This document shows positions 24,538 through 27,599 of a stretch of DNA of 64,000 bases, in pieces. A program made the position numbers and the translations under genes. Each line of letters opens with the position of its first letter. Position 1 is the stretch's first letter. The stretch spans positions 1,431,001 to 1,495,000 of the forward strand of contig NZ_CP059692.1 in assembly GCF_014058705.1 (NCBI RefSeq), given 5' to 3'. The notes beneath the pieces are model-generated. The model made no database searches. It had not been told where the DNA came from and saw only the letters and a program-made list of their open reading frames with translations. Source of the DNA: Aureimonas mangrovi (GTDB lineage Bacteria; Pseudomonadota; Alphaproteobacteria; Rhizobiales; Rhizobiaceae).

Positions 24538-25666
24538 ATGCGTGCCGAGATCGAAACGATCGTCGACGAAATCAAGCAGGCCGTAAGCCTGCTGAGGAGG
24601 CATCTTTGACTGGGATCACTCGGTCAAGGAACTCGAAAGACTGAACGCTCGTGCGGAGGACCCCTCGATCTGGGATGATCCGCAGGAAGCGCAGAAACTG
24701 ATGAAGGAGCGCCAGCGGCTCGATGAGACGATCGCGGGAATCCGCGCGCTCGAGCAGTCGCTGTCGGATTCCATCGAACTCATCGCCATGGGCGAGGACG
24801 AGGGGGACGCCTCCATCGTGCAGGAGGCGGAGACCACCATCCGCGGGCTCCAGAAGGAAGTCGCGCAGCGCCAGATCGATACGCTTCTGTCGGGCGAGGC
24901 GGACGCCAACGATACTTACCTCGAGGTGCATTCAGGCGCCGGCGGAACCGAGAGCCAGGACTGGGCCTCGATGCTGCTGCGCATGTACATGCGGTGGGGC
25001 GAGCGGGCGAAGATGAAGGTCGAGGTGCTAGAGTCGAACTCGGGCGAGGAGGCGGGGATCAAGTCCGCCACCATTCTCCTCAAGGGGCACAACGCCTACG
25101 GCCGGATGAAGGTGGAATCGGGCGTGCATCGTCTCGTGCGCATCAGCCCGTACGATTCGGCTGCGCGGCGGCATACCTCCTTCGCTTCGGTCTGGGTCTA
25201 TCCGGTGGTGGACGATTCGATCGAGATCGACGTCTCGGAAGGGGATGTTCGCATCGACACTTACCGTGCATCGGGCGCGGGCGGCCAGCACGTCAACACC
25301 ACGGATTCGGCCGTGCGCATCACGCATCTGGCGACGGGTATCGTTGTGCAGTGCCAGTCCGAGCGCTCGCAGCACAAGAACCGGGCAACCGCCTGGAACA
25401 TGCTGCGCGCCCGCCTCTACGAGGAGGAACTGAAGAAGCGCGAAGAGGCAGCGAACGCACAGGCCGCGTCGAAGACCGACATCGGCTGGGGCCACCAGAT
25501 CCGCTCCTACGTGCTGCAGCCCTATCAGCTCGTGAAGGACCTTCGCACGGGCGTGGAGCACACGACCCCGCAGGATGTTCTGGACGGCGATCTCGACGAG
25601 TTCATCGAGGCCGCGCTCGCCCATCGCGTGCACGGCGGCGATCTTCAGGTCGAAGACGTCGACTGA
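24538..25666 (+). CDS. prfB: peptide chain release factor 2 with programmed +1 frameshift
   Basis: The gene starts at ATG 24538. After 23 codons the zero frame meets TGA at 24607; slipping +1 at CTT (24604-24606) continues in the frame that runs to 25666, giving 375 aa. So the coding sequence is join(24538..24606,24608..25666). An internal Shine-Dalgarno AGGAGG (24595-24600) stands 3 bases before CTT, as in the classic RF2 autoregulatory site. The product recognises UGA and UAA. Hydrolysis motif GAGGQHVN is present. The codon-recognition tripeptide reads SPY in [12 protein letters not shown], where E. coli RF2 has SPF. Lies 87 bp after mrcA. Confidence 0.95.
24595..24610 (+). promoter_or_regulatory. 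RF2 programmed frameshift site
   Basis: AGGAGG-CAT-CTT-TGA-C: an internal ribosome-binding sequence, 3-base spacer, slippery CUU and a UGA stop followed by C. When RF2 is scarce, the ribosome pauses at UGA and slips +1. The layout is the same as the E. coli prfB site (AGGGGG-TAT-CTT-TGA-C). Confidence 0.95.
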
Positions 25667-25730: not shown

Positions 25731-27197
25731 CTACTCGGTGAGGCTCGACAACGGGCTCTCGAAGGCGAAGCGCAGGCCCTCGCGGGCGTAGTCGATCTTC
25801 ATTTCCTCGCCGATCTCGGCGGCGAGCGAGCGCTCGATCATCCGGCTGCCGAAACCACGGCGTGTGGGTGCCTCGTTGATCGGCGGACCGCCCATCTCGC
25901 GCCATTCGAAGGCGAGGCGACGTTCGCCATCGACGTCGAAGGTCCGCCAGGAAACGTCAATGCGGCCGGTTTCGTTGGAGAGCGCGCCATACTTGACGGC
26001 GTTGGTCGCCAGCTCGTGCAGCGCGAGAGACAATGCCGTCGCGACCTTCGGCAGAAGGCGAACGCGCGGGCCTCTTTCGCTGACACGCCCGTCCTCGCCG
26101 CGGAACGGGTCGAGCGACCGCGCGACGACCTCTCCAAAGAGCGCGCCCGCCCAGCCTTCACGGGTCAGAACGTCGTGCGTGGCGGCGAGCGCCTGCATGC
26201 GACCCGCCATCGTCTCCTGCGCCTGGTCCAGGCTGTGGGCGTTGCGCAGCGTCTGCGAGAAGATCGACTGCACCGTCGCCAGCACGTTCTTGACGCGGTG
26301 GTCGAGCTCGCGCGTGAGGAGCTCGCGATGCAGTTCGGCGCGCTTGCGCTCGGTGATGTCCGCGCAGACGCCGGAGAGCAAAATCGGATCGCCTTGCGCG
26401 TCGAAGGATGTCTGGCCGCGCAACTCGATCCAGAGCTCTTCATCGTCTTCCTTGAGGATGCGGCTCTCGATCTCCAACTCACCCGAGCCCGACATCGCGG
26501 CCCTCATCTCCGCGCGCCAGAGCAAACGGTCGGCCGGGTGGAGAGCCGATTCGAGGTCCTGCTGTGTGACGCTGTCCGCCACCTCCAACCCGAACATATG
26601 CCGGAAACGCTGCGAGGCGACGACCCGTCCGCCTTTCAGGTCGATCGCCCACGCGCCGAGCCGCCCGGCGTCCAGCGTGAAGCGCAGGCGCTCCTCGGTC
26701 CGGGACAAATCCGCGATGCGCCGCTCCAGCTCCTGTTCCAGCGAGGAGCGATCGGTCTTGAGGCGCGCCAGACGATTGATCTCGGCCGTCACGTCGAACT
26801 GCGAGGCGAAGAAATACATGAGGTCGCCGTCGGCCGCGAAGACCGGCGAGATGAGAAGGCGGTTCCAGAAGGTGGTGCCGTCCTTGCGATAGTTCAGGAG
26901 ATCGATCTCGATCGGAACCCGGTTGGCGACGGCGTCACGGACGCGCCCGACGTCGTCGCGATTCGTCGCCGGCCCCTGGAGGAAACGGCAGTTGCGATTC
27001 AGCGTCTCGTCGCGGGAGTAGCCGGTGAGACGACCGAAGGCGTCGTTGACGAAGACAATCGGATTGTCGGGCTGCCGCGGATCGGTGATGAGCATCGGCA
27101 TGCGGGTGGTGCGCACGGCCGAGGCGAACGGATCGGTCCCGTTATCGACACGATGGAGCTCGTGCTCGATCCGGCTTTCCTCACGCCTGTCTACCAA
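25731..27197 (-). CDS. LOV-PAS sensor histidine kinase of the HWE/HisKA_2 type (blue-light receptor)
   Basis: 488 aa from the TTG at 27197, the most upstream start; GTG 27114 or ATG 27099 are alternatives that would trim the LOV N-cap. Residues about 33-140 form a LOV domain: N69-C70-R-F-L-Q carries the cysteine that bonds flavin after blue light, and Q133 in FFASQFDVT is the conserved flipping glutamine. A coiled linker (about 141-170), a second PAS domain (about 170-285), then the kinase: ELDHRVKN with phospho-acceptor H300 and the ATP-binding HELATNAVKYGALS. HWE kinases of this layout signal general stress in Brucella and other Rhizobiales. The response-regulator partner is not in the window. 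Confidence 0.92.
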   Translation of the reverse strand: MVDRREESRIEHELHRVDNGTDPFASAVRTTRMPMLITDPRQPDNPIVFVNDAFGRLTGYSRDETLNRNCRFLQGPATNRDDVGRVRDAVANRVPIEIDLLNYRKDGTTFWNRLLISPVFAADGDLMYFFASQFDVTAEINRLARLKTDRSSLEQELERRIADLSRTEERLRFTLDAGRLGAWAIDLKGGRVVASQRFRHMFGLEVADSVTQQDLESALHPADRLLWRAEMRAAMSGSGELEIESRILKEDDEELWIELRGQTSFDAQGDPILLSGVCADITERKRAELHRELLTRELDHRVKNVLATVQSIFSQTLRNAHSLDQAQETMAGRMQALAATHDVLTREGWAGALFGEVVARSLDPFRGEDGRVSERGPRVRLLPKVATALSLALHELATNAVKYGALSNETGRIDVSWRTFDVDGERRLAFEWREMGGPPINEAPTRRGFGSRMIERSLAAEIGEEMKIDYAREGLRFAFESPLSSLTE

Positions 27198-27275
27198 ATG
27201 CCTGCCCCACAGCCCCCGGACGGCGAAAGCGCCGTCATGTCGGGATCGTATCCATATCGTCCGTCGTTATGAAGC

Positions 27276-27599
27276 ATGGCAGTTCGTCTCGTCTACGCTT
27301 CCAAGCTCGCGTCCGGCGTCAAATCGTCCGACATCGACGCTATCGCCGCGACCTCCGCAGACCGCAACGCCCGTCGAGGCATAACCGGGATACTCGCGCT
27401 TGACGGTGATCATGTGTGTCAAATCCTCGAGGGGCCGGACGCCGACGTATCCAGCCTGTTCGACACAATCATCAAGGATCGGCGACATGAAGGCGTCGTG
27501 GAACTTCATCGCACGCCCATCGACAGGCCGCGCTTTGCCGGGTGGGGCATGGCGCGGCGGCCGATGATCGACGTGGTGATGATGGCCTACGCCGACTGA
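27276..27599 (+). CDS. BLUF domain protein (FAD blue-light sensor)
   Basis: 107 aa, just one BLUF domain with no output domain. Key residues are in place: Y7 (RLVYAS), N31 (RNARRGITGIL), Q49 (CQILEGP), W90 and M92 (GWGM). These bind FAD and shift hydrogen bonds on blue light. Short BLUF proteins of this kind work by binding partner proteins. It starts 78 bp from the divergent LOV kinase gene, so the two photoreceptors probably share a regulatory region. The position before Q is V-C rather than the more usual F-L. Confidence 0.9.
   Translation: MAVRLVYASKLASGVKSSDIDAIAATSADRNARRGITGILALDGDHVCQILEGPDADVSSLFDTIIKDRRHEGVVELHRTPIDRPRFAGWGMARRPMIDVVMMAYAD

Follow-up and report, generated by a model that had tools for sequence, protein, structure and literature searches.

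A divergent gene pair in Aureimonas mangrovi encodes a LOV-PAS-HWE histidine kinase and a minimal BLUF protein and may form a blue-light unit

In Aureimonas mangrovi, the genes for two flavin photoreceptors of different chemistry, a LOV histidine kinase and a stand-alone BLUF protein, lie head to head, raising the question of whether the two proteins act together or are merely neighbours. Work on the LOV kinases that act in the general stress response has mostly treated them as single sensors. In Caulobacter, the LOV kinase gene lovK has a small signalling gene, the receiver lovR, alongside; the pair studied here likewise joins a LOV kinase gene to a small neighbour, which encodes a BLUF protein and not a receiver. 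A 2014 review counts Aureimonas ureilytica, which has two short BLUFs in addition to two LOV kinases, among bacteria rich in LOV and BLUF proteins and, one exception apart, sees presently no hints of how such LOV/BLUF networks work (PMC4844311). No published account of a BLUF/LOV-kinase gene pair was found in the literature searched, a body of work that mostly did not extend to subscription papers. We analysed a 64-kb stretch of the single-contig genome (3,485,124 bp), hereafter the window, and compared its gene pair with those of other genomes; the features of the pair and its flanks are collected in Table 1.

Table 1 Features of the divergent kinase/BLUF pair and its flanks (window positions).
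Feature	Position	Strand	Basis
Likely bidirectional terminator at the convergent prfB/kinase ends: 17-nt inverted repeat, 88% complementary	25687..25724		fold z -5.1
LOV-PAS-HWE sensor histidine kinase gene	25731..27197	-	488 aa, TTG start; Pfam and PDB-sequence matches
HWE dimerisation/phosphoacceptor region, kinase residues 297-377	26067..26309	-	HWE_HK 97 bits, cut-off 22.8
His300 codon of kinase	26298-26300	-	H300 in RELDHRVKN
Second PAS domain, kinase residues 192-277	26367..26624	-	Pfam PAS_3, 71 bits
LOV domain, kinase residues 42-138	26784..27074	-	Pfam PAS_9 match, NCRFLQ motif
Photo-active Cys70 codon of kinase	26988-26990	-	C70 in NCRFLQ
Divergent intergenic region, 78 bp	27198..27275		sequence
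Possible operator: perfect 7-bp inverted repeat GACGGCG-aaag-CGCCGTC	27219..27236		repeat scan
Stand-alone minimal BLUF gene	27276..27599	+	107 aa; Pfam BLUF 92 bits, cut-off 25
Likely bidirectional terminator at the convergent BLUF/rpmG ends: 11-nt perfect inverted repeat	27624..27647		fold z -1.1

A preliminary description of the locus had assigned the kinase a photo-active C70 in NCRFLQ, a second PAS domain and the H300 of an HWE kinase, all of which were confirmed by a check of the residues and by Pfam. Ahead of the conserved TDPF (residues 21-24), the TTG at 27197 is the only ATG, GTG or TTG codon. In a search against PDB sequences, residues 19-483 matched the LOV-HK of Brucella abortus (PDB 6ph4) with 366 bits, and H300 aligned with the histidine of that protein. 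The two kinases share the LOV-PAS-HWE order and the corresponding Cys and His, and PhyR, NepR and EcfG are encoded in the Aureimonas genome as well; the Aureimonas kinase differs in that it adjoins a BLUF gene and reaches 318 bits, in two stretches, with the NCBIfam equivalog model "blue-light-activated histidine kinase", whose curated cut-off is 450 bits. This 334-position model appears to describe a short form of the kinase that lacks the second PAS domain. With the adduct-forming Cys in NCRFLQ, the HWE core with its His and the central second PAS all present, we class the kinase by its architecture as a Brucella-type LOV-HK, although it falls below the threshold of the model. It is the only LOV match in the source genome at E<=1e-25. 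That either gene of the pair is a pseudogene was rejected, both frames being open and the key residues kept; judged by sequence, both proteins are members of known families, and both are predicted to bind flavin.

The BLUF protein, described earlier as a lone BLUF domain with all of its flavin contacts, indeed carries Y7, N31, Q49, W90 and M92 (a Tyr/Gln/Asn/Trp/Met correspondence that we take from AppA numbering), as a residue check and Pfam agree. What that description overlooked is the absence of a C-terminal region: the protein ends 17 residues past W90 and 5 past the end of the Pfam profile, and its best matches to solved BLUF structures span residues 3-93. PixD/Slr1694, BlrB, PapB and BlsA, which we group, in part by assumption, as short BLUF proteins, are similarly stand-alone and conserve the flavin-site residues, but a canonical short BLUF continues for about 40 or more residues past the BLUF core as a C-terminal helical region, which the window protein lacks. 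An AlphaFold model built from two sequences (mean pLDDT 54, pTM 0.48) places residues 2-80 in a BLUF-like order of strands and helices, its tail being unusable.

This minimal form is not peculiar to the window. With broken or cut sequences excluded and identical tails counted once, 18 complete BLUFs end at most 8 residues past the profile, all of them in the family group of the window genome, and the BLUF on the AU20 plasmid, annotated at 342 bp, agrees with these lengths. The 30 BLUF loci fetched order-wide, which were the best-scoring ones, all continue for 40 residues or more past the profile. Since these were the best-scoring loci, and since one genome elsewhere in the order (G307) has a BLUF open frame of only 108 codons, confinement of minimal BLUFs to the family is not proven.

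How so short a BLUF could signal bears directly on whether it acts with the kinase. The Synechocystis BLUF protein PixD is reported to act through light-dependent binding of the receiver-like PixE and to require its C-terminal region for a stable dimer and for PixE binding (PMC5899715), and minimal BLUFs must therefore signal differently or not at all. The idea of a BLUF that binds a two-component-like protein in a light-dependent way carries over from PixD-PixE to Aureimonas, where a second BLUF adjoins a single-domain receiver; the first, in contrast, adjoins a photoreceptor kinase and lacks the region that PixD needs for its dimer and for PixE, which counts against a joint unit working by the PixD route. 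The very small BLUF would for the same reason test whether output requires the C-terminal region that PixD uses for signalling.

Candidate partners of both proteins were sought across the genome. The preliminary description had found no response regulator nearby, and none of the 33 receiver-domain matches in the genome (E<=1e-5) lies within 138 kb of the kinase. The genome carries one NepR, the locus of which also holds PhyR, EcfG and a PAS-HWE kinase. Brucella abortus LOV-HK is reported to bind and phosphorylate PhyR, with phosphorylated PhyR rising in vivo with light (PMC8092228), and the Rubellimicrobium LOV kinase RT-HK likewise signals to a PhyR (PMC12148442). Because these two LOV kinases act on PhyR, PhyR is the likeliest candidate receiver of the window kinase. 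Also overlooked earlier was the second of the two BLUFs of this genome (G000:C1:1943619, ~50% identical to the first), a minimal BLUF divergent from the gene of a 128-aa single-domain receiver (L197:6824-7943; G000:C1 ~1942.8-1943.9 kb). In NCBIfam this receiver best matches the PhyR family, with a score of 85 bits that falls far short of the 240-bit cut-off.

We tentatively propose, with confidence that stops somewhat short of an even chance, that the two genes form a blue-light unit in which the kinase feeds PhyR and the BLUF protein, its gene lying next to that of its target, acts as a soluble partner in a light-dependent way. Light would produce a cysteinyl-flavin adduct in the LOV domain of the kinase, which would phosphorylate a distant receiver, most likely the PhyR of the single NepR-bearing PhyR-NepR-EcfG locus; phosphorylated PhyR would then lead to release of EcfG and switch on the general stress response. 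The BLUF protein, without a C-terminal region, would be such a partner, most likely binding directly to the kinase or to its receiver and so tuning it, and would add a second flavin sensor of different photochemistry. Phosphotransfer from the kinase to PhyR is predicted from the studied Brucella homologue, and a role of the BLUF protein in this route is suggested by gene neighbourhood together with BLUF precedents. If the two proteins are coupled, the pair would provide a naturally occurring example of one output served by two flavin photochemistries, and it would help to ask how bacteria read the dose and duration of blue light.

The proposal gains from recurrence of the pairing within the genus. 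The 21 Aureimonas genomes contain 41 LOV places and 36 BLUF places, each set spread over 19 genomes; the BLUF search used the window BLUF as its query, which distant BLUFs can escape, and 2 of the 21 genomes gave no match to it at E<=1e-3. Of the 21, 7 have a BLUF no more than 2 kb from a LOV domain, and three arrangements occur among them: the divergent window pair; a divergent pair in one syntenic gene order shared by five species (G079, G201, G205, G208 and G214); and the pair of A. frigidaquae (L076/L208), which is convergent. In G205, the syntenic block runs G6PD, PepSY-TM, PCuAC, superoxide dismutase, BLUF, LOV-HWE kinase, M20 peptidase, HU, Lon, ClpX, ClpP; G211 has the same block with the kinase and no BLUF among its listed matches. 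The paired kinases of the block are short LOV-HWE forms without a second PAS domain (e.g. that of G205). Synteny between the window pair and the other divergent pairs was rejected, as their gene surroundings differ. The LOV-BLUF centre distances are nearly equal (485 bp in the window, 493-511 bp in the others).

Uniform placement would yield 0.066 such pairs, giving P(>=3) = 4.5e-5; if the window pair, selected precisely for being one, is left out, the two further arrangements give P(>=2) of about 0.002. These statistics are post hoc and come from a model that ignores the general clustering of functionally related genes, and they use 36 of the 37 BLUF rows, a second fragment of the G204:C14 place having been removed. 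Pairing by pure chance is unlikely. Two further observations concern other Aureimonas genomes. BLUF matches with stops or split frames (G204:C14:17363-17669 and G199:C1:2064458-2064757) are possibly decaying copies, and one locus (L188:2-3021, in G214:C76) has tandem LOV-HWE kinases, the first without a second PAS domain and clipped by the locus edge, the next of LOV-PAS-HWE form.

Beyond Aureimonas, the pairing is nearly absent from what was sampled. Among 80 named LOV-kinase loci, 13 of which are under 10 kb with clipped flanks, two hold a BLUF: that of A. frigidaquae and that of Paracoccus benzoatiresistens, in which the BLUF (L071:1201-1757) lies upstream of a LOV-PAS-HWE kinase and looks broken, with its N-terminal part in another frame. 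Within the family sample, a LOV domain occurs within 1.5 kb of the BLUF at only two of 30 BLUF loci, the window and G079, and at none of the 30 loci fetched order-wide. Across 297 genomes of the order, none of the 32 other listed LOV places is less than 5 kb from a BLUF among the matches listed, on a comparison of the listed rows by eye, and the nearest LOV-BLUF distances there are about 21 and 30 kb. A general LOV/BLUF linkage across the order, considered as a candidate, was thus seen neither in the order-wide sample nor in the named loci. No plasmid-borne pair appeared in the plasmid regions inspected (5 of the 22 records for LOV kinases, taken with flanks of 3 kb, and the best of 213 BLUF records), whose gene tables are incomplete. 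On a Paracoccus aestuarii plasmid (L338:3088-4962), downstream of a kinase gene whose product matches the window kinase over 99% of its length lies a response regulator gene in convergent orientation, which may encode the cognate partner. Taken together, the combined light-sensing module suggested in the preliminary description is partly supported: recurrence of the pairing in 7 of 21 genomes and three arrangements, and a kinase tree test (below), speak for it, and absence of the pairing from the remaining 14 genomes and from nearly everything else sampled speaks against it.

The explanation that competes best holds that the genes are neighbours without a joint mechanism, each protein acting on its own partner and light-related genes having been inserted at one spot and kept as useful in sunlight. 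We consider this quite possible, if doubtful. It draws on the apparently recent insertion of the window pair: the neighbourhood of prfB, to a distance of about 1.5 kb, shows no LOV or BLUF match in the 20 other Aureimonas genomes, G206, which prfB places nearest, lacks any LOV match at E<=1e-25, and the genus offers no close orthologue of either protein (best identity 55% for the kinase and 53% for the BLUF), all of which make the window copy probably an insertion. It must also account for three BLUF/LOV-kinase arrangements in one genus, more than random placement allows, and for one syntenic divergent pair kept in five species.

The company kept by minimal BLUFs elsewhere is mixed, and unrelated or metabolic neighbours again favour the absence of a joint mechanism. 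In a survey of annotated loci that left out G204 and G212, minimal BLUFs adjoin genes for mannitol dehydrogenase and ROK (G209 chromosome), mannitol dehydrogenase (G216), MarR (G215), an M24 peptidase and GntR (G206), gyrA and MarC (G059), phosphoketolase (G151) and a sugar transferase (G023). Others have divergent signalling neighbours: LOV kinases in the window and the five species, the receiver in the window's own genome, and GGDEF-EAL genes in G207 (L220:6115-8632) and G210 (L221:5649-8194). A BLUF of the AU20 plasmid (L340:302-4318) likewise has an annotated diguanylate cyclase/phosphodiesterase gene less than 2 kb away, with small genes between. These neighbourhoods are compatible with the minimal BLUF being a plug-in regulator and do not prove it. 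A wider and rather improbable reading is that the capless minimal BLUFs of Aureimonas are interchangeable light-driven regulators, repeatedly placed divergently beside the transducer they control, be it a LOV-HWE kinase, a PhyR-like receiver or a GGDEF-EAL protein, with the window pair gating the general stress response by blue light through two flavins. If so, the window kinase would be a photoreceptor that is itself under the control of a second, chemically different photoreceptor.

How much weight recurrence lends to the two-gene unit depends on whether the pairs arose once. From 101 kinase sequences, nine (repeats, or without the LOV motif) were removed, and in the resulting 92-row tree the window kinase sits within the LOV-PAS-HWE forms and is separated from the short ones (99/78); its branch is long, and the tree program marks its position as unsure. 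We ran AU tests on 36 and 28 of these rows, with groups named after the first tree was seen; the block kinases were those of G079, G201, G205 and G208, which are paired, and of G211, with no BLUF listed, the near-copy in G214 being omitted. Forcing the window and block kinases together was rejected for LOV plus HWE (p 0.0005, 36 rows) and for the HWE part alone (p 0.0014, 28 rows), and was not rejected for the LOV part alone (p 0.086, 28 rows). Because the kinase test rejects this grouping, the sequences suggest either that BLUF came to lie beside LOV kinases on more than one occasion or that it was kept through a change of kinase, and repeated pairing or a kinase swap beside BLUF in turn favours a functional link.

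The alternative is a single ancestral BLUF/LOV-kinase pair, of which the window copy moved while its kinase gained the second PAS domain (or the others lost it), so that the recurrence counts once. We think this unlikely given the kinase trees and the differing gene surroundings of window pair and block, but several observations speak for it: the same divergent layout with nearly equal spacing, the LOV result just given, and a window LOV domain most similar to that of G205 (80%). The window and block BLUFs also share one clade (99/92) of a 56-row tree that has few columns and an unsettled bootstrap; within this clade, the window BLUF groups with unpaired BLUFs (91/89). In a 24-row subset of these sequences, the place of the window BLUF was unresolved and its grouping with the block BLUFs was not rejected (AU p 0.11).

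Coupling could also be transcriptional. The 78 bp between divergent start codons reported earlier agree with the sequence, and of the earlier statement that the genes share one promoter region the divergent geometry holds, while no sigma-70-like promoter was called by scan in the 78 bp. A match to the EcfG promoter, for which we scored with what we take to be its consensus (GGATC-N17-CGTT), occurs at 27243-27268 with one mismatch and was dropped; it is weak, and we do not claim it as a site because the 64-kb window contains 17 such matches and the five related divergent pairs contain none. A promoter shared by the kinase and BLUF genes is thus possible, with nothing beyond the geometry in its support. 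That the BLUF protein is a light-dependent antirepressor or co-regulator of the kinase gene, with the divergent region as operator in the manner of AppA-PpsR or BluF-BluR, is very unlikely: the geometry and the perfect inverted repeat, the only exact match to its pattern in the window, invite it, but the pair encodes no DNA-binding protein, the region has no sigma-70-like promoter, and near-matches to the palindrome are common (11 with at most two mismatches, against 3.8 expected).

At its outer end, each gene of the pair meets a terminator-like repeat, so that prfB and rpmG enclose what looks like a self-contained divergent unit. A simple terminator scan called neither repeat, and the fold of the one on the rpmG side is not clearly above those of shuffled sequences. 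The neighbouring prfB (24538-24609 onward, + strand) has an apparent autoregulatory frameshift start of the classic kind, in which a 23-codon leader ends in CTT TGA (24604-24609) with AGGAGG before it.
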